Part shown: positions 13,044 through 23,070 of the stretch, piece by piece
Numbering within the stretch: position 1 is the first letter of the stretch
How the letters are laid out: every line of letters starts with the position of its first letter
DNA from: Nocardia flavorosea
Lineage (GTDB): Bacteria; Actinomycetota; Actinomycetes; Mycobacteriales; Mycobacteriaceae
Assembly: GCF_015477805.1 (NCBI RefSeq)
Contig: NZ_JADLQL010000001.1
Span: 310,001 to 374,000 of the forward strand
Reading direction: 5' to 3'
DNA: 64,000 nt
Made by a program: the position numbers and the translations under genes
The notes under the pieces: generated by a model
The model's database searches: none
What the model was told of the DNA's origin: nothing
The model's input: only the letters and a program-made list of their open reading frames with translations

Positions 13044-13220
13044 GAGACGAGGGTAGACGGCGGTTCAGGTGCCGCGGGCGGCTCGGTGCCGGCGAGCGCG
13101 GTCGCGGCCCGGCGGCGTAACAGTGTGCGGCCGGGCGCCGCGCTTTCCGGCACGACGCGTAGGCGCCGTTCGGCAGGGATGCGACGTGCCGCCGGACCGC
13201 GGTCGATACAGTCGCAGGTG

Positions 13221-14966
13221 ATGCGCATCGATCGGAAAGTCCTCGTACTGCTGACGATCCTCGGTCTGGCCCTGGCCGGTTGCTCCTCCGGGCCGCCCGA
13301 GCCCGAAACCACGGCCGGCAGTTTCGCCGACGCGCTGAACCGCGACGATGTCGCCGCGGCGGCGCAGCTCACCGACGACCCCGCCCGCGCGGAGAAGACC
13401 GTCGGCGCACTGTACGACGGTCTGGGCAAGGAGGTGACCTACACGGTCGCCGGGACCGAAGACGATACGTTCACCCTCGAGGCCACCTGGAAGCTGGGAA
13501 AACAGGGCGCCGAATGGAAGTACACGACTACCGGCACCGCCGTGGAGACCGACGCGGGCCATCGCATCCGCTGGAACCCGGCCGTGCTCGCGCCCGGCCT
13601 CGACCAGGGGGAACTGACCTATGCGCCGGTGTATCCGGAACCGGCGCGCGTTCTCGACGCGTCGGGCGGGGAACTGCTGACCGAGCAGGTGGTGACCCTG
13701 GTCCAGCTCGCGCCCGGCGCCGATACCGCGGCGGTGGCGAATCTGGTCTCGCCGATCGCGCCGGGCATCACCGCGGCCGCACTGGACGCCGATCTGGCCG
13801 CGGCCAACGGCGGCTCCGTAACGGCGATCAGCTTGCGGGAATCCGATATCGCGCCGATCCGGGAAGCGCTGACCGGCACTGCCGGGGTCACCTTGGCCCC
13901 GCAGACCCGACTGCTCACCACCGACCGCGATCTGTCTGCGCAGACCCTGTCCGGTCCGGCCGAACTGTGGCAGGAGCAGGCCGACGCTGCCGCCGGTTGG
14001 GTGGTCCAGGCCCGCACCCCGGAAGGTCCGGTCCGGATCGCCGGCCGGGACCCCGGGCAGACCGCCGATATCCACACCACCATCGACGCGGGCCTGCAAC
14101 GTGCCGCGGAAACCGCGCTGGACCCGCTCGACCGGACGGCGGCGATCGTGGCGATCCGGCCGTCCACCGGTGAAATCGTGGCCGCCGGCCAGAACTCCGC
14201 CGCCGACGCCGAAGGACCCATCGCGTTCACCGGTCTCTACCCGCCCGGTTCGACCTTCAAGACGGTGACCACCGCCGCGGTGCTGGACGCCGGAATCGCG
14301 AACCCCGATACCGTGCTGCCGTGCCCCGGCGTCGCCGATATCGAGGGTCGCCGGATCCCGAACGACGACAGTTTCGACCTGGGCCAGGTACCGCTGCACA
14401 CCGCCTTCGCGCGGTCCTGCAATACGACCATGGCCGGGCTGGCAGTCCAGTTGCCGCAGGGAGCGCTCACCACCACCGCCGAACGCCTCGGCCTCGGCGT
14501 CGACTATGTGACACCCGGACTGACCACGGTGACCGGCAGTGTGCCGGTCCCGCAGAACTCCGCCGAACGGGTGGAGGCCAGTATCGGCCAGGGCGCGGTG
14601 ACGGCGAGTCCGTTCGGGATGGCGCTGGTCGCCGCCTCGATCGCGGACGGTACGACGCCGGCGCCGGTGATGATCGCCGGGCAACCCGGCTCCCCGGATC
14701 GCACCCCGCCGCCGCTGCCCGCCACCGTGACCGACCAGCTGAAGACCATGATGCGCGAGACCGTGACCGCGGGTACCGCCACCCAGTTGGCCGATATCCC
14801 TGGTCTGCTCGGCAAAACCGGCACCGCCGAATACGGTGACAACACGAATGCCCACGGTTGGTTCGTGGGCATTCGCGGGGATCTCGCCTTCGCGGTATTC
14901 GTTGCCGACGCCGGTAGTTCGGGTCCGGCCGTGCAGGCCGCGGGGCGCATGCTGCGGAGTTCGTGA
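13221..14966 (+). CDS. penicillin-binding lipoprotein (class B-type transpeptidase with MecA_N-like domain)
   Basis: A membrane-anchored D,D-transpeptidase of 581 residues, related to M. tuberculosis Rv2864c. Lipoprotein signal with lipobox LALAGC; then an NTF2-like domain (about 30-140), a PBP dimer region, and a transpeptidase domain with all active-site motifs: STFK at S344, SCN at S399 and KTG at K532. It should crosslink peptidoglycan stems and bind beta-lactams. The ATG at 13221 directly follows a GTG that could serve instead; a much longer upstream frame overlaps the aminotransferase antisense and is rejected. Confidence 0.93.
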   Translation: MRIDRKVLVLLTILGLALAGCSSGPPEPETTAGSFADALNRDDVAAAAQLTDDPARAEKTVGALYDGLGKEVTYTVAGTEDDTFTLEATWKLGKQGAEWKYTTTGTAVETDAGHRIRWNPAVLAPGLDQGELTYAPVYPEPARVLDASGGELLTEQVVTLVQLAPGADTAAVANLVSPIAPGITAAALDADLAAANGGSVTAISLRESDIAPIREALTGTAGVTLAPQTRLLTTDRDLSAQTLSGPAELWQEQADAAAGWVVQARTPEGPVRIAGRDPGQTADIHTTIDAGLQRAAETALDPLDRTAAIVAIRPSTGEIVAAGQNSAADAEGPIAFTGLYPPGSTFKTVTTAAVLDAGIANPDTVLPCPGVADIEGRRIPNDDSFDLGQVPLHTAFARSCNTTMAGLAVQLPQGALTTTAERLGLGVDYVTPGLTTVTGSVPVPQNSAERVEASIGQGAVTASPFGMALVAASIADGTTPAPVMIAGQPGSPDRTPPPLPATVTDQLKTMMRETVTAGTATQLADIPGLLGKTGTAEYGDNTNAHGWFVGIRGDLAFAVFVADAGSSGPAVQAAGRMLRSS

Positions 14967-14998
14967 GACCACCGAACAGGTGCACGGCGGCCGGATGC

Positions 14999-15517
14999 TC
15001 AGACCGACTGTTCCCGGGCTGCGTCGAGCAGCAGTTCCACCGCGTAGACGACCACCTGATCGAGGATTTCGGCGGGCTCGCCGGGAAAGTGCCGATGGTG
15101 CGTCCGCACCGAACCGTCCACCGATACGGCGAACCACACCGATCCCGGCTCGTGTCCGTCCTGCGAGTCGGGGCCACCGGCACCCGTGACGCCCACGGCC
15201 AGGGACGCTTCGAACAGCGTGCGTACCCCTTCGGCCATCGCGGCCGCCGCCGCAGCGGACACCACCGGCCCGTCCGGTACGCCGAGTACATGGTGTTTGA
15301 CGGCTCTGCTGTAGGCGACCACGGCCCCCCGGAACCATTCACCGGATTTGCTCGCCGCGCCGAGCGCCGCCGCGAGCTGCCCCGAGGTCAGCGATTCCGC
15401 GACCGCGACCTGCAGCCCGCCGCGCCCCGCGATTTCCGCCAGCTCCTCGGCCTGTTCGTGCGCTCGCCCCAAAACAGAGGGCACCAGCAGTTCATCGGAA
15501 TCAGATCCGGAAGGCAT
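14999..15517 (-). CDS. CinA C-terminal domain protein (PncC-type nicotinamide-nucleotide amidase)
   Basis: A stand-alone CinA C-terminal domain of 172 residues. The motifs VAVAESLTSGQLAAAL, VVAYSRAVKHHVLGV and VGVTGAGGPD are those of PncC amidases, which deamidate nicotinamide mononucleotide to nicotinate mononucleotide in NAD salvage. The ATG at 15517 is preferred over ATG 15523 and GTG 15532 because GGAGG lies 6 bases before it. It converges on the PBP gene with a 32-base gap. Confidence 0.9.
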   Translation of the reverse strand: MPSGSDSDELLVPSVLGRAHEQAEELAEIAGRGGLQVAVAESLTSGQLAAALGAASKSGEWFRGAVVAYSRAVKHHVLGVPDGPVVSAAAAAAMAEGVRTLFEASLAVGVTGAGGPDSQDGHEPGSVWFAVSVDGSVRTHHRHFPGEPAEILDQVVVYAVELLLDAAREQSV

Positions 15518-16802: not shown

Positions 16803-17065
16803 CCGCCTCGGCCGCGGTGGCCGGGATCGGCAAAGGCTCGTTCGATCCCGGCGCCGCGCTCGCGGTACCGCCCGTGCTGTCTGCCGTGGCAGGCCGTGAT
16901 CGCGATCGGTCGAACCGAATGCGTGTGCGGCTTCGATGGCCGTGGCAATTTTGTGGCGAATAGCATTGCGGCGAACTGTCTTTGCCGCTTCGTGTGAACA
17001 CCGCGCCCCCAGCCGTAATTCATGCTACTTTTCGTCACATATACCCCGGCTGGTGTGGAGGTCCA
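16803..17065. other. intergenic, relatively AT-rich leader of the four-gene membrane operon
   Basis: 263 bases. The second half (about 16930-17060) is clearly richer in A/T than its surroundings and holds -10-like ATATAC at about 17039-17044. It probably contains the promoter of the operon starting at 17066. Confidence 0.4.
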
Positions 17066-18925
17066 GTGCCGTACAACGTGCACGAAGTGATCGGGCGGTC
17101 GCTTGCCCAAGGGAACGAGGGCGGCGGCGCGGCGCTGGATCAGGTCGCCATCATGACCGGGTCCGCCGGGGTGATCGCCCTCGGATTGATGTGGGTGGGC
17201 TACCTCCACCGCACCCGCCGCATCACCTGGTTACAGCGGACAGCGGACCGGCTCGGAAGCTGGTTCGATCAGCCGGGCTGGGTGGCGCTACCGCTGGCGA
17301 TGTTCCTGGCCACCATCCTCACCGCGCTGCTCGGCTTCATCTGGGATGTGAGCCTGCACATCGGTAACGGCCGCGACGAGGGCCCGCTGGCCAATCCGGC
17401 GCACTATTTCATCCTCGCGGGTCTGTTCTTCCTGTTCACGGCCGGAATGACGGCGATCGTGCTGCCACTCGACGAGAAACCCGGCCCGGCGGCGGTGCGG
17501 ATCACCCGTGCCTGGTACGCGCCCGTCGGCGGGATCCTGCTGGCCGGCGCCGGATTGTATGCCTTGATCGGGTTCCCGCTCGATGATCTGTGGCACCGCA
17601 TATTCGGGCAGGACGTCACGCTGTGGGGCCCGACGCATCTGATGCTCATCGGCGGAGCGGGGCTATCGCTGGTGGGTGTGCTGCTGCTCGAATTCGAGGG
17701 CCGGCACAGCCGGCCCGATACCGACCAGCCGCGGCCGCGCCGGATGTGGTGGATGCGTGCCTTCGCCTTCGGTGGCCTGCTCATCGGGCTGTCGGTATTC
17801 CAGGTGGAGTACGACTTCGGCGTCGAACAATTCCGGCTGGTGCTGCAGCCCATGCTGATGGTGGCGGCGGCGACCGTTGCCCTGATCGCCGCCCGGATGA
17901 CCCTCGGAACGGGCGCGGCGCTGGTGGTGGCGTGTTTCGCCGCCGTGGTCCGTCTCGTGGTGGCCTGGCTGGTCGGCGGGCCGATCATCGACGCGCCGCG
18001 TAATGTCTTCCCGCTCTATCTCGGGATCGCCGTGATGGTGGAGGTCCTCTGCCTGCTGCCGGCGGCCCGGCGCCGGATCCGGTGGGGCGCGCTGACGGGT
18101 GTGGTGGCGGCAACGGCGGGGATCTGGCTGGAATCCCTGTGGGTCGCTGCAGTATTCGTCGATCCGTGGCCCACGGCGATGTGGCCGGAGCTGTTGCTGA
18201 TGACGATCCCGACCGGAATTGCGGGCGGTGTGGTCGGCGCGCTGCTCGCGACCGTGCTGCTGGGTGAACCGTTACCGCGTCCGGCCGTGCGGCGCACACT
18301 GATAACCGCCGCCGTGGTCGTGGTCGCAGCGGCCACCGCCAACGGTTTGATGATCGATATCCCGCAGGACGCCCGGGCAACGGTGCAGTTGCGGGAAGCC
18401 CCGCCCGACGGCGGCCGCATGGTGCACGCCGATATCCGCATCACACCGGCCGATCTGGCCGGCGACGATCCGGAATGGGTCCAGATCCTGGCCTGGCAGG
18501 GCGGCGTGGGCAGTGACAGTCCCGGGCGCGGGCTCGTGGTGGATCAGCTACGCCGCGTGGGCGAGGGACATTACGTGACCACGGAGGCTGTTCCGGCCCA
18601 CGGCACCTGGAAGACGGTCCTGCGCATCCAGGACGGGCGCACACAGACCGCGCTGCCGATCTTCATGGCCGCCGACCCCGGTATCGGTGCCGGGGAGGTG
18701 CCGGCGCTGGGCGAATTCACCCGCCCGTTCGTCGCCGAGATCACGGTATTGCAGCGGGAGCGTTCATTCGATCATCCCGCCTGGCTCTTCACCGCGGCCT
18801 CGCTGATCGTGCTGCTGTGCAGCCTGGCGTTGATCGCCGCGTTGTCCTGGGGCGCTGCCCGGATCAACGACCGTTATCCGCGGTCATCCGGCGTGCGGGC
18901 GCCGGAGCAGGCACCGGTTTCGTGA
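17066..18925 (+). CDS. multi-pass membrane protein with C-terminal YtkA-like extracytoplasmic domain
   Basis: 619 residues. Roughly ten to twelve hydrophobic helices occupy residues 30-430, with histidines near membrane faces (DVSLHIGNG, NPAHYF, GPTHLMLIGG). Residues of about 440-565 form a soluble beta-rich domain whose GHYVTTEAVPAHGTWKTVLRI segment looks like the YtkA/FixH-type Ig-like fold found beside copper proteins, followed by a final membrane helix. GTG at 17066 follows GTGGAGG; a longer frame from 16982 lacks support. First of four overlapping genes (GTGA with the next). Function unknown; a copper or redox role is inference from the domain and the cupredoxin-like partner. Confidence 0.85.
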   Translation: MPYNVHEVIGRSLAQGNEGGGAALDQVAIMTGSAGVIALGLMWVGYLHRTRRITWLQRTADRLGSWFDQPGWVALPLAMFLATILTALLGFIWDVSLHIGNGRDEGPLANPAHYFILAGLFFLFTAGMTAIVLPLDEKPGPAAVRITRAWYAPVGGILLAGAGLYALIGFPLDDLWHRIFGQDVTLWGPTHLMLIGGAGLSLVGVLLLEFEGRHSRPDTDQPRPRRMWWMRAFAFGGLLIGLSVFQVEYDFGVEQFRLVLQPMLMVAAATVALIAARMTLGTGAALVVACFAAVVRLVVAWLVGGPIIDAPRNVFPLYLGIAVMVEVLCLLPAARRRIRWGALTGVVAATAGIWLESLWVAAVFVDPWPTAMWPELLLMTIPTGIAGGVVGALLATVLLGEPLPRPAVRRTLITAAVVVVAAATANGLMIDIPQDARATVQLREAPPDGGRMVHADIRITPADLAGDDPEWVQILAWQGGVGSDSPGRGLVVDQLRRVGEGHYVTTEAVPAHGTWKTVLRIQDGRTQTALPIFMAADPGIGAGEVPALGEFTRPFVAEITVLQRERSFDHPAWLFTAASLIVLLCSLALIAALSWGAARINDRYPRSSGVRAPEQAPVS

Positions 18926-19116
18926 ACGACCGGTACGACGATGTGGTGGTCCTGGCGGACCACTCGATCCTCTTGGCCGTCCCCGCTTTCCTGCCCGCCT
19001 TTCTCATCGCCGGAGTCGTCCTGTTCATCGCGGTGCGCGACCGCAGGAACGGCCCGGACGAATCGGCTCCGCCGCATGAAGCGGATACCGCGCCCGACAC
19101 CGACGAGGAGAACTGA
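18922..19116 (+). CDS. small single-pass membrane protein
   Basis: 64 residues starting VNDRYDDVVV at a GTG that overlaps the previous stop (GTGA). One membrane helix (SILLAVPAFLPAFLIAGVVLFIAV) is followed by a charged, acidic tail (EADTAPDTDEEN). The tail codons end in GACGAGGAG, which doubles as the ribosome site of the next gene. Probably a small subunit of a membrane complex with the flanking gene products; no family recognised. Confidence 0.8.
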   Translation: MNDRYDDVVVLADHSILLAVPAFLPAFLIAGVVLFIAVRDRRNGPDESAPPHEADTAPDTDEEN

Positions 19117-19505
19117 TGCCCCTATCGCGGTTATGCGTGCCACTGCTCGTGGCAGGGCTGCTCACTGCCGGTTGCGCTGCCTCCGAACCGCAAGGTCCCG
19201 GTGTGGAGAAACCCCCCGGCGCGACCGAGTCGGCGGCGAGCGTGCGCCTGACGGTGCGGATCGCGGACGGGGTGGTGTCGCCGGTCGACAGCAGGCTGGA
19301 CGCGCGGGTCGGTCAGCCGGTCGAAGTCATCGTGGACAGTGATGTTTCCGACGAACTGCATGTGCACGCGAATCCCGACCATACGTTCGGCGTCGCCCCG
19401 GCTATCGGACAGCGTTTCCGGTTCGCCGTCGAGGTCCCGGGCCGGGTGGAGATCGAACTGCATCATGCCGGGGTCACGGTGGCGACCCTGCTCGTCCGCC
19501 CGTGA
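19116..19505 (+). CDS. cupredoxin-like lipoprotein
   Basis: 129 residues. Lipobox LTAGC at about residues 16-20 marks a lipoprotein. The mature domain (about 42-128) is all-beta and matches cupredoxin-like sequences of actinobacteria: VIVDSDVSDELHVHANPDHTF, then a final VPGRVEIELHHAGVTVATLLVRP. Several histidines (HVH, DHT, LHH) could bind metal, but there is no cysteine ligand in the mature part, so it may be a copper carrier of another type or metal-free. The ATG overlaps the upstream stop (TGATG) and its stop overlaps the next GTG. Confidence 0.85.
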   Translation: MPLSRLCVPLLVAGLLTAGCAASEPQGPGVEKPPGATESAASVRLTVRIADGVVSPVDSRLDARVGQPVEVIVDSDVSDELHVHANPDHTFGVAPAIGQRFRFAVEVPGRVEIELHHAGVTVATLLVRP

Positions 19506-20830
19506 CAACGCTGGCCCACGGGATCGGCGGTGCGTCGGACCTGCCGATCCCGCTGACCTATGCGTTGATCGGTGCGGCGTGGGCGCTGGCCTTCTCGTTC
19601 GCGGTGCTCGCCTTCGCCTGGCGCGAACCCCGGCTGGACCCGGCCCGGGGCGGGAAACCGGTACCGGCGGCGGTGCGTGCGGTCGTGGATTCGCCGGTCC
19701 TCCGTGCGGTTGTGGCCGTGGGGAGTGTCGCCGCGACCGTGCTGGTCCTGACGGCCGGCGTTCTCGGTTCCGCCGATCCCGCCGGGAATCCGGTGCCCGG
19801 TGTCGTCTACGTGCTCGTCTGGGTCGGGGTGATGGTGGCTTCGCTGGTCGCCGGACCGGTGTGGAAGCTGCTGTCCCCGGCGCGGGCCGTGCACCGCGGG
19901 CTGTGCGCGATCACCGGTCGTGCGCCCGAGTCCGGTCGGTTGCGGTATCCGCGGACGTGGGGCCGGTGGCCGGCGGCGTTCGGGCTGTTCACCTTCGTCT
20001 GGCTCGAACTGGCCTCCCCCGACCCCGGTTCGGTGACCGCCGTGACTGTGTGGGTGGCCGGGTATCTGATCGTCACTGTGGCGGGTTTATGCGTTTTCGG
20101 CACCGAATGGGCCGAAAACGCCGACCCGCTGGAGGTGTACAGCAGCCTGCTCGGCCGGTTGAGCCTGCTCGACCGGGGCTCCGGCGGTGTGTTCGTCGTG
20201 CGCTCGCCGCTGGCGAACCTGGCGGGCACTCCGGTGGGACCCGGGTCGGTGGCGGTCGCGGCGACGCTGCTGGGTTCCACCGCGTTCGACAGTTTCTCGC
20301 TGTTCGAATGGTGGCGGGGTCTGCTCGCCGAGGCGGGCGGCGTCCTCGGGCGCACTCTGGTGAGTACCGCCGGTCTGCTGGTGTTCATCGTCGTCGTGGG
20401 AGTGAGTTTCCGCCTCGCCGCCGCGGCCACCGGTGGGCTCGCCCGCGCCGAACGCCGCCTGCTCCCGACCCGGCTCGCCTACACCCTGACACCGATCATC
20501 GCGGGTTATGTGGTCGCGCATTACCTGAGCTTCCTGGTCGAGAAGGGCCAGGCCACGGTGATTCTCTGCGCGGATCCGTTCGCCGCCGGGTGGAACCTGT
20601 TCGGCCTGGCCGACCGGGAGGTCGCCTACCTCTTGTCGGCGCATCCGGCGGTGCTGGGCACCATGAAGGTCGTGGCCGTGGTGACCGGTCATGTGCTGGG
20701 TGTCGCCGCCGCCCACGATCGTTGTCTGCGCCTGCTGCCGCCGGCGTATCGGCTCACCGGCCAACTCGCGCTCATGCTGCTCATGGTCGGCTACACCTTC
20801 ACCGGGCTCTATCTGCTGTTCGACGCTTGA
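19502..20830 (+). CDS. multi-pass membrane protein of unknown function
   Basis: 442 residues with about ten hydrophobic helices (for example 22-42, 68-90, 98-118, 165-200, 290-310, 330-350, 385-440). The GTG start at 19502 overlaps the lipoprotein stop (GTGA), so it is co-translated as the last gene of the four-gene operon. Conserved-looking blocks include LASPDPGSV, FGTEWAENADPLEVYSSLLGRLSLLDR and TPIIAGYVVAHYLSFLVEKGQ. No catalytic family recognised; it is probably the partner channel or scaffold of the first gene product (inference). Confidence 0.85.
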   Translation: MTTLAHGIGGASDLPIPLTYALIGAAWALAFSFAVLAFAWREPRLDPARGGKPVPAAVRAVVDSPVLRAVVAVGSVAATVLVLTAGVLGSADPAGNPVPGVVYVLVWVGVMVASLVAGPVWKLLSPARAVHRGLCAITGRAPESGRLRYPRTWGRWPAAFGLFTFVWLELASPDPGSVTAVTVWVAGYLIVTVAGLCVFGTEWAENADPLEVYSSLLGRLSLLDRGSGGVFVVRSPLANLAGTPVGPGSVAVAATLLGSTAFDSFSLFEWWRGLLAEAGGVLGRTLVSTAGLLVFIVVVGVSFRLAAAATGGLARAERRLLPTRLAYTLTPIIAGYVVAHYLSFLVEKGQATVILCADPFAAGWNLFGLADREVAYLLSAHPAVLGTMKVVAVVTGHVLGVAAAHDRCLRLLPPAYRLTGQLALMLLMVGYTFTGLYLLFDA

Positions 20831-20872: not shown

Positions 20873-21796
20873 TCATCCGGTCAGCTGACGGCCCGGCACC
20901 GGTCGGCCGGCAGAATGATCCCAGTGGGCCGCGCCGGGAGCGTGCTCGTGCACCGGACGGATCGCTTCCACGGCATTGACGCAGGTCAGATGGTCGGCAG
21001 GATGGACGCCCGCCATACATTTGAATCGGACGTTCGCCGTGCCCTTCGCGGTATCGGTGGTCGTGGTGAGCCGGTAGCGCAGCGGCGCCCGGTCCGCAGT
21101 GGCCGCCGACCAGACGGATCGGTAGCTCAGCGCCGGGCCGAGTGCGCGGTCGACGATCACCTTTTGGATCACGCCCGTGCTGTCGGTGACCACGTCCACC
21201 GTCCCGGCCGGTGTCTCGCCGGCGCCTGTCACGCCGTCGAAAACCGCCTCGTCGAGGACGTGGAGTCCCGCCGCGTAGTAGCCGTCCGCCAGGGCCGCGG
21301 CCCGGGTAGCAAGGGCGGTGTCGACAGTGCCGATCCCGATTTCGCCCGGAGCGCCCCACGGGTAGACGCCGGTGCCGGTGAAGTCCAGTTCCTCCACCAG
21401 CTCCACCCGGCGGATATCGCGGGTGACCTCGGTGAGCGACCGGATGAGCCGGGCCGGGATGGTGGTCTGGAATGCACCGGTCGCGTGGAATGCCGAGTTC
21501 CCGGCGTGGCAAGCGTCGGCGAGCGCGGCCGGCGGGCCGTGCCCGTTCTGCGGTGCCGTGGAGATCACGTCGTACCCTTCGTGAAGCAGACGCGGCAGTA
21601 TCGCGGCCGGTGCGGCCGCGGCGATCTCGGCGAGCGACGGTACGTAGACGACACTTCCGGTACCCGCAGGTAGTACCCGCGCATCCGCGCTCCGGGCGGT
21701 GAGTTCCAGATCGGGCCGGGCGTCGATCCGGTCCGCTATCGGACCGGCGAGCAGGCCGGCGCCCAGCACCGCCACGGCGAGGGTGGGTGAACTCAT
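20873..21796 (-). CDS. DapB-fold NAD(P)-dependent dehydrogenase (dihydrodipicolinate reductase-like)
   Basis: 307 residues. The N-terminus TLAVAVLGAGLLAGPIADRI is a Rossmann nucleotide-binding turn, followed by a central segment (NSAFHATGAFQTTIPARLI) typical of the DapB N-terminal-like / 2,4-diaminopentanoate dehydrogenase superfamily. It probably oxidises or reduces an amine- or keto-containing substrate; true DapB catalytic motifs are not evident. ATG at 21796 has GGAG 5 bases upstream; a longer GTG frame to 21937 lacks a ribosome site. Stands alone. Confidence 0.75.
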   Translation of the reverse strand: MSSPTLAVAVLGAGLLAGPIADRIDARPDLELTARSADARVLPAGTGSVVYVPSLAEIAAAAPAAILPRLLHEGYDVISTAPQNGHGPPAALADACHAGNSAFHATGAFQTTIPARLIRSLTEVTRDIRRVELVEELDFTGTGVYPWGAPGEIGIGTVDTALATRAAALADGYYAAGLHVLDEAVFDGVTGAGETPAGTVDVVTDSTGVIQKVIVDRALGPALSYRSVWSAATADRAPLRYRLTTTTDTAKGTANVRFKCMAGVHPADHLTCVNAVEAIRPVHEHAPGAAHWDHSAGRPVPGRQLTG

Positions 21797-22056
21797 GCGG
21801 GCTCCAGACGATAGTGCCGACGCTGGTCCGGTGTCAGGGCATTCGATACCGGTCGGGCCGCCCTCGAGGGTGATCACTGGCTCACCGGCGAGGCTGCTCC
21901 GCGTACAGAGCGTAGGCAACATCGCCGAGTACGGCACCGGAATCGCCGTGTTGCCCCGAATCGGCCGTTCGGCGCCTCGGAACCGGTCGCCTGAACGGAA
22001 TCGACTGTGCCGGCGGTATTCCGGACGGAGTTGCGCCGGGCGTCATGCCGGGAATC

Positions 22057-22087
22057 GTGTGGCCTCGACCGGGGGACGAGGCCACAC
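22057..22087. terminator. hairpin terminator downstream of the LppU-like gene
   Basis: A perfect 11-bp stem (GTGTGGCCTCG at 22057-22067 with CGAGGCCACAC at 22077-22087) around a 9-base loop, 16 bases beyond the leftward gene's stop. No T-run. Confidence 0.65.
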
Positions 22088-22103
22088 ATCGGCGTCGGGG
22101 CCG

Positions 22104-22691
22104 CTAGACCTCGGCGACGCAGGTGACGAGTTTGCGCTCGTCGTAGGTGTAGTAGCTGGTGGCCTCGCCGGGGCAGCCGGCCGCATCGGTGGTGCCGGGC
22201 AGGATCGCGAGCACCCGGACGGTATCAGGCTTGCCCGCGGTGCACGGGCTGTGCGAGGGGCTGTCCATACCGGTCGGAATGGTCATGCACTGGCCTACGA
22301 CCCAGTCGATATCGAGGCACAGGGCGCCCTGTTCCTCGCCGCCGAGGGTGACGTAGTAGGTCTGGTCGACGTCGGCGGCGCAGCCGTCCTGGGTCGGTGC
22401 CTTGGCGACGACCTTGTAGTTGGACTTCTCGCTACCGCACTCGGCGTGGTCGATCTCGGCGTCCATCATGGTCCCCGACAGGTTCACGCATTGGCCGATC
22501 TCGGCGTCGAAGTAGACATCGCCACCTTCGTCGGTGCCGTTCTGCCCGGGAACGGTTGTCTCGGGCGCCGGGCTCGCCGAACTCGACGACTCCGCGCCGG
22601 AGCACCCCGACAGAGCGAGTACGGCGCAACCGGCCACGACGAACCCGGTGAGCAGGTTCCGGACCCGGAAAACGGGTGCGCGTCTGGACAT
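22104..22691 (-). CDS. LppU-like secreted lipoprotein
   Basis: 195 residues. Signal peptide with lipobox LALSGC, then a Ser/Pro-rich linker and a small cysteine-rich domain. Block DAEIGQCVNLSGT and the paired cysteines in GCAADVDQTYY, GALCLDIDW and CMTIPTG follow the mycobacterial LppU family; disulfides are likely. Function unknown in the family. ATG at 22691 (MSRRAPVF) is chosen because GGAGG lies 7 bases upstream; a start 17 codons earlier lacks this. Confidence 0.8.
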   Translation of the reverse strand: MSRRAPVFRVRNLLTGFVVAGCAVLALSGCSGAESSSSASPAPETTVPGQNGTDEGGDVYFDAEIGQCVNLSGTMMDAEIDHAECGSEKSNYKVVAKAPTQDGCAADVDQTYYVTLGGEEQGALCLDIDWVVGQCMTIPTGMDSPSHSPCTAGKPDTVRVLAILPGTTDAAGCPGEATSYYTYDERKLVTCVAEV

Positions 22692-22917
22692 GGCAATTCC
22701 TCCATCGAAATCGATCGCATGAGCGGGTGGGGGAGAACTCATGAATCGTTCGACGAGGCGCCACGGTGTATGCGCTGCTCGCCACCCCTACCCGATCAAG
22801 ATCATATCCGGTGGCTGCGCGGTGCCGGAGCGCACTGGTCCGGGAGCGGTGGAACCCGCCGAGTGACCCGCCCACGTGGGGCAGGGCACCCGGCCGATCA
22901 CCGTGGTCCCGGCCGGA

Positions 22918-23070
22918 CTATTCGGAATCGGCCGATCGGTTCGGATCCTCGGCCGCCCGCAGGGCGGTCTCCAGTTCCCGCCGGAGCCGGGCCGCTTCGG
23001 CCTCGTTCCCGGCGTCCTCGGCGGTGGTGATGTCCTGGTTCAGCTGGGCGATCGTATCGCGGCTACTCAT
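22918..23070 (-). CDS. small coiled-coil hypothetical protein
   Basis: 50 residues beginning MSSRDTIAQLNQDITTAEDAG, mostly Glu/Ala/Arg/Leu heptads (RLRRELETALRAAEDP), so probably one amphipathic helix or short coiled coil. ATG at 23070 is preceded by GGGAGG with 4 bases spacing, which is the main reason to call it real. Divergent from the LtrA gene. No family recognised. Confidence 0.6.
   Translation of the reverse strand: MSSRDTIAQLNQDITTAEDAGNEAEAARLRRELETALRAAEDPNRSADSE

Follow-up and report, generated by a model that had tools for sequence, protein, structure and literature searches.

A conserved four-gene operon

Examination of a 64,000-nucleotide stretch of the Nocardia flavorosea genome (assembly GCF_015477805.1, contig NZ_JADLQL010000001.1, positions 310,001 to 374,000; hereafter the window, in whose numbering positions are given) reveals four overlapping forward-strand genes, the first of which encodes a likely relative of PmoC/AmoC, a protein of the copper membrane monooxygenases (CuMMOs). 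Gene 1 (P0001, 17066..18925) has a GTG start with GGAGG just upstream and codes for a 619-residue membrane protein that combines a core bearing a PmoC-like double metal-site motif with a YtkA/FixH-like extracytoplasmic domain and a C-terminal helix. Gene 2 (P0002, 18922..19116) specifies a 64-residue protein with a single helix, in which an N-terminal LADH is followed by RR and an acidic tail. The 129-residue product of gene 3 (P0003, 19116..19505) is a cupredoxin-like lipoprotein with its lipobox cysteine at position 20 and conserved H82-x-H84 and E114-x-H116 pairs, while gene 4 (P0004, 19502..20830) codes for a 442-residue ten-helix protein with invariant D263, H340, H397, H405 and M428 and a conserved N-terminal histidine (H6). 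The junctions 1-2, 2-3 and 3-4 consist of GTGA (4 nt), TGATG (1 nt) and GTGA (4 nt), exactly as an initial annotation made from the sequence alone had placed them. The host genome is 6.4 Mb in size, and its gene 1 product is 95% identical to that of Nocardia carnea.

A scan of named bacterial genomes recovered 568 relatives of gene 1, and the best 80 of their loci, from Nocardia, Rhodococcus, Antrihabitans, Mycolicibacterium, Williamsia and Kitasatospora, constitute the set for all operon counts given here. The complete set of four genes, in the same order, is seen in about 70 of these 80 loci; Rhodococcus jostii and Mycolicibacterium neoaurum (L126 and L134) are examples of species with orthologues of the operon. 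The coupling is likewise retained: a start that overlaps the preceding stop by 4 nt is present in 69 of 73 loci for junction 1-2, in 52 of 69 for junction 2-3 and in all 68 of 68 for junction 3-4, which exceeds chance. Given that order and overlaps are kept across the loci while the flanks differ between genera, with no flanking gene conserved across genera in the 80 loci, the four genes form one discrete unit; for the same reason the flanking genes were dropped as a clue to the substrate. The conservation of the operon also suggests that the four proteins form one complex. Neither Pfam nor NCBIfam has a family for any of the four, and 26 diverse relatives of gene 1 gave no consistent Pfam match. 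The earlier statement that no known system has this composition holds in the databases and literature that we checked. Within the order, gene 1 matches at E <= 0.001 occur in 82 of 200 genomes, a number that includes weak partial matches to a shorter family of about 400 residues described below.

The PmoC-like double metal-site motif of gene 1

The N-terminal half of gene 1 contains two motifs resembling those that ligate metal in PmoC. Motif 1 (17345..17404) reads W93-D94-x3-H98-x4-R103-D104-x6-P111-x-H113 and aligns with D-x3-H-x4-RD-x4-P-x-H of PmoC, and motif 2 (17582..17638) reads D173-x3-H177-x5-D183-x5-P189-x-H191, so that the two hairpins have the patterns D-x3-H-x14-H and D-x3-H-x13-H, in that order. 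In the PmoC subunit of the particulate methane monooxygenase (pMMO) of M. capsulatus, the CuC ligands are Asp156, His160 and His173 and the CuD ligands Asn227, His231 and His245 (PMC12576850), CuD having been proposed as the active site (PMC11194816). In an alignment of PmoC and AmoC sequences the two motifs read D-x3-H-x4-R-D-x4-P-x-H and N-x3-H-x5-E-x5-P-x-H, respectively, and every one of these positions is invariant or nearly so. The spacing of motif 2 (0, +4, +10, +16, +18) is the same for D, H, D, P and H in gene 1 as for N, H, E, P and H in PmoC.

Both motifs are invariant in a first alignment of 26 relatives. A wider search of the phylum yielded further relatives of about 600 residues and the separate family of about 400 residues. 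In a second alignment, which spans all branches (26 members, down to 19% identity), D94, H98, H113, G119, D173, H177, G181, D183, P189 and H191 are conserved throughout and no other residues are, and all six ligand positions fall within these ten. At the first site the Asp-His-His triad is thus retained by every member, with a spacing to the last histidine of x14 in the window versus x12 in PmoC (Asp-x3-His-x12-His); across the superfamily this spacing varies from x11 to x14, and two members (L173 and L247) have exactly x12. At the second site both histidines and the spacing of CuD (Asn-x3-His-x13-His) are kept, with aspartate in place of asparagine in all members. An intermediate relative, L195, reads DVAWHIDLGRDVVLFTPSH versus DASWHQVIIRDTSFTPSH in PmoC, which is a near-literal PmoC motif. 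The family of about 400 residues comprises membrane proteins of other actinobacteria (L160:1365-2561, L242:7365-8561, L245:7648-8988) with the same double motif, no Pfam match and a so far unrelated gene context.

For an hhalign comparison with PmoC/AmoC we used a profile of the core region, residues 66-262 of gene 1, that draws on all branches and whose members were not selected by motif; the score was 39.0 (P 4.8e-5, probability 68%). None of 450 column-shuffled PmoC alignments reached this score (mean about 14, maximum 27.4), and the reversed profile and two gene 4 alignments gave 12.1, 15.0 and 18.4, respectively. An earlier core set, picked by motif, had scored 33.1 with both motifs aligned in register, and an initial comparison limited to three PmoC sequences gave a weak result (P 0.08), the signal emerging once both sides were diverse. 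Profiles of PmoA and PmoB matched none of the gene 1, gene 3 and gene 4 families; hence the signal is specific to PmoC. Together these observations suggest that gene 1 is likely to be homologous to PmoC; we grade this no higher, as the AmoC profile (PF04896) finds gene 1 in no genome and structure searches return no PmoC.

The AlphaFold model of gene 1 (pTM 0.83) shows about 12 helices, a β-domain at residues 437-555 and a last helix. D94 and H98 lie at the end of one helix with H113 early in the next, and D173/H177 and H191 are disposed likewise. Positively charged residues (15 K/R inside versus 4 outside, leaving out the folded domain) place the N-terminus, both motif loops and the β-domain on the outside. 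The model has no convincing whole-protein structural match, the best-scoring ones being generic helical bundles, and a PDB sequence search with gene 1 returned nothing. For the β-domain (residues 430-556; 18353..18733), which the initial annotation fairly described as YtkA-like, VIA-align gave Z 6.7 to FixH in the cbb3 complex (9g6b) and Z 5.5 to CrdA, low scores at which the tool warns of a possibly mere common arrangement; Pfam has no match to it beyond FixH at E 0.2 in one member. Adjoining one gene 1 relative is a separate gene for a protein that reads as YtkA-like in sequence and lacks a Pfam match (L248:9075-9599).

Genes 2 to 4, their neighborhoods and a predicted operator

Members of the gene 2 family have one helix and start near LADH or LAHH. 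A short one-helix gene with an N-terminal LAHGG and a basic, then acidic tail follows hmoB in the operons for the hydrocarbon monooxygenase (HMO), a CuMMO, of actinobacteria (L031:10130-10345, L038:17640-17936, L228:15111-15392), and shows weak profile similarity to gene 2. It is possibly an unrecognized small subunit; the archaeal ammonia monooxygenase also has extra small helical subunits (PMC10030591).

The family profile of gene 3 matches CuA domains and copper nitrite reductases at moderate significance (E 1e-4 to 1e-3), the nitrite reductase matches arising partly through the signal-peptide region. Along with a conserved set of H82, H84, H116, D76 and E114, this makes the earlier label of a His-rich cupredoxin-like protein a fair one. 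There is no conserved cysteine in gene 3 besides that of the lipobox; a His/Glu/Asp set stands in place of type 1 or CuA ligands. The ten helices ascribed to gene 4 are reproduced by its AlphaFold model (about 10 helices, pTM 0.88), for which Foldseek and VIA-align found no fold match in the PDB beyond generic helical bundles; gene 4 profiles likewise retrieved nothing from PDB sequences. Relatives as distant as those of rhizobia and haloarchaea still have H340, H397, H405, M428 and D263 without exception. In the relatives from rhizobia and Sulfitobacter, H6 is matched, on reading the sequences, by the residue position next after what looks like a signal peptide (A|H). Profile comparison ruled out gene 4 as a PmoA, and gene 3 or the β-domain of gene 1 as a PmoB. 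One genome contains a second copy of gene 4 interrupted by a transposase-like open reading frame (ORF; L257:8327-10787).

The pair of genes 3 and 4 also occurs apart from gene 1. A plasmid collection contains four actinobacterial CuMMO loci (M. chubuense NBB4, Rhodococcus ZPP, Rhodococcus WAY2 and M. dioxanotrophicus), and each of them has the pair but no gene 1; the same holds for copper clusters from M. rufum and M. gallinarum, gene 3 of the latter being only weakly recognizable. Copper ATPases and a multicopper oxidase also accompany the pair, and in genomes of other families the pair directly adjoins CopC, CopC-CopD or YcnI (DUF1775). Counted by hand, at least 11 gene 4 places among the matches listed lie within 40 kb of CopC or DUF1775, a number that is only suggestive, as related genomes are over-represented. 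The M. vanbaalenii cluster in which a gene 1 relative follows CopC also includes ctaD, the gene for cytochrome oxidase subunit III and a CtaG-like cytochrome c oxidase assembly gene. Distant gene 4 relatives of Neorhizobium (L033:7665-9128) and Sulfitobacter (L035:7602-9011), both with an apparent signal peptide ending A|H, adjoin nicotinate degradation genes, the Sulfitobacter locus also encoding PCu(A)C; one in Haladaptatus (L034:7584-8966) adjoins an aldehyde ferredoxin oxidoreductase gene. The link to copper or respiration that the initial annotation had proposed is thus borne out by genes for CuMMOs, for CopC with cytochrome oxidase, for CopC, CopD and YcnI and for copper ATPases beside relatives of the operon, but its overall interpretation overlooked the PmoC-like double metal motif of gene 1. 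In the window itself, two long ORFs, putative genes with no Pfam match, adjoin the operon (13065-15338 and 21699-23030; 757 and 443 residues).

Upstream of gene 1 lies a dyad, TGCTACTTTTCGTCACA (TGnTAC-N5-GTnACA; 17023..17039), which is likely to be the operator of the operon. With at most one mismatch it occurs upstream of 29 of the 80 related operons versus 7 of 1600 random stretches; the operons bearing it are nearly all from Nocardia, where most have it, and it is placed 46-67 nt upstream of the start. A regulon search with the dyad gave three sites across the entire genome, which does not exceed the control. It differs from a typical copper operator, and an operator of the RicR/CsoR type was dropped as a candidate because TACC..GGTA-like sites are scattered and present in only 10 of the 80 loci. 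In several other actinobacterial families a divergent gene for a MerR-family regulator of about 245 residues adjoins the gene 1 relative (L060:8771-9535, L230:8923-9672, L240:6315-7058).

Proposed role and comparison with known systems

Taking these observations together, we propose that the operon specifies a copper membrane complex that faces the extracytoplasmic side, has a divergent PmoC/AmoC relative at its center and is provided with its own copper-handling module, a reading that we consider fairly probable on balance. Gene 1 would present two Asp-His-His metal sites, equivalents in sequence of CuC and CuD, each at the outward end of a helical hairpin, beside its YtkA/FixH-like outer domain. 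Genes 3 and 4 would constitute a portable copper-handling module: the cupredoxin lipoprotein would capture copper on the outside of the membrane, and this lipoprotein and the His-rich ten-helix protein together would supply the PmoC-type sites with it (or with electrons). The product of gene 2 would be a one-helix accessory subunit. Given that the pair accompanies copper genes and a PmoC-type protein, be it HmoC or gene 1, a copper-handling pair serving PmoC-type sites is the simplest account of genes 3 and 4. We infer that copper is the metal, that the proteins associate physically and that transfer proceeds in this direction. The operon of Nocardia, Rhodococcus and Mycolicibacterium may thus represent an undescribed copper-dependent membrane system in bacteria without CuMMO enzymes.

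Several observations weigh against this proposal. PF04896 matched none of the 26 gene 1 members and nothing over cut-off in the 200 genomes of the order, the profile match is moderate and dominated by motif 1, AlphaFold confidence is low in the motif loops, and PmoC was not among the matches listed for the full gene 1 model by Foldseek (PDB and viral models) and VIA-align. The first of these, with the lack of a fold match, would be expected if gene 1 were an unrelated membrane family whose zinc- or copper-binding hairpins resemble PmoC by chance; Asp-His-His sites can also hold zinc. We think such convergence improbable, as the two hairpins agree with PmoC in order and almost in spacing, the R-D and P-x-H second-shell residues are common to gene 1 and PmoC, intermediates show the exact CuC spacing and no shuffled alignment reaches the observed score. 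A further adverse point is the aspartate of the second site, since a neutral asparagine belongs to CuD; the aspartate makes both gene 1 sites CuC-like and so argues against simple pMMO chemistry. That gene 1 activates O2 and oxidizes a substrate is a guess that we hold to be doubtful, and it is unlikely, though worth stating, that gene 1 founds a second PmoC-type enzyme branch, a widespread actinobacterial copper membrane oxygenase without PmoA or PmoB for which genes 3 and 4 act as its own copper loader.

The same aspartate, together with the resemblance of the β-domain to the copper proteins FixH and CrdA and the neighborhoods with CopC, CopD, YcnI, P-type ATPase, CtaG-like and cytochrome oxidase genes, would fit a purely copper-handling system, in which copper is taken up or relayed by genes 3 and 4, and gene 1 has no catalytic function but binds metal so as to store, sense or transfer it for the benefit of cytochrome oxidase or other cuproenzymes. 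We regard this as a tentative alternative and a rather unlikely one: two fully conserved PmoC-type sites with second-shell R, D and P residues seem beyond the needs of a storage protein, and next to most chromosomal operons there is neither an oxidase nor a copper gene, an absence that counts against the proposed copper complex as well. Genes 3 and 4 might alternatively form a redox relay in which a cupredoxin and a His-rich membrane protein, possibly a haem binder, feed electrons to PmoC-type oxygenases and, in rhizobia and haloarchaea, to molybdenum or tungsten enzymes. The three invariant intramembrane histidines of gene 4 and the nicotinate degradation and aldehyde ferredoxin oxidoreductase genes beside its distant relatives speak for such a relay; however, one of these loci carries the copper chaperone PCu(A)C, and gene 3 lacks the cysteine ligands of blue or CuA sites and is therefore unlikely to transfer electrons rapidly, which makes electron transfer a decidedly improbable role. 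A role as accessory of a resident CuMMO was ruled out: the window's genome has no PF02461 (PmoA), and AmoC is over cut-off in 0 of 200 genomes of the order.

To our knowledge, PmoC is known only as a component of CuMMOs or from additional genuine pmoC/amoC genes, some of which are in phages, and a literature search agrees. If the proposed homology is correct, a divergent PmoC relative that keeps both metal hairpins, and that is present in common actinobacteria of soil and clinical origin, would provide an outgroup for the debate on the catalytic copper site of pMMO, and another protein for testing which pMMO copper site does the chemistry. The gene 3-4 pair is a concrete candidate for the copper loading of HMO at actinobacterial loci, and a second PmoC-type branch, if real, would reveal a role of such sites beyond methane, alkane and ammonia oxidation.

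Among known systems, those of CopC-CopD and YcnI often adjoin genes 3 and 4 and likewise set outer-face copper proteins beside polytopic membrane proteins, although genes 3 and 4 have no Pfam match to CopC, CopD or DUF1775. The outer-face β-domains of YtkA, FixH and CrdA appear, by model comparison, to share the fold class of the gene 1 domain, the latter being distinguished by its place in a large polytopic protein and by scoring with no Pfam family. The actinobacterial HMO cluster, as in Mycolicibacterium chubuense NBB4, contains relatives of genes 3 and 4 and the gene 2-like gene after hmoB; unlike the operon it has true HmoCAB and no relative of gene 1. The title of Liew et al. (2014), as cited in PMC7674155, gives the metal center of HMO subunit C, not B, as essential by mutagenesis. 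As regards the other CuMMO subunits, no PmoA-like profile match was found among the operon families, and PmoB with its mature N-terminal histidine (CuB) had no match in the gene 1, 3 and 4 families, the rest of the genome not having been searched for it; lacking PmoA, PmoB and a PF04896 score, the operon should not be called a CuMMO. Compared with PmoC/AmoC (PF04896; pMMO structures 7s4h and 7s4j), gene 1 is longer (619 versus about 250 residues), has a first loop two residues longer, aspartate for asparagine at the second site, extra helices and the YtkA/FixH-like domain, and stands in an operon without a PmoA or PmoB partner. What it shares with them is the pair of helix-loop-helix metal motifs, the order of the two and a conserved R-D after the first; the consensus common to both is D-x3-H...P-x-H followed by [D/N]-x3-H-x5-[D/E]-x5-P-x-H.

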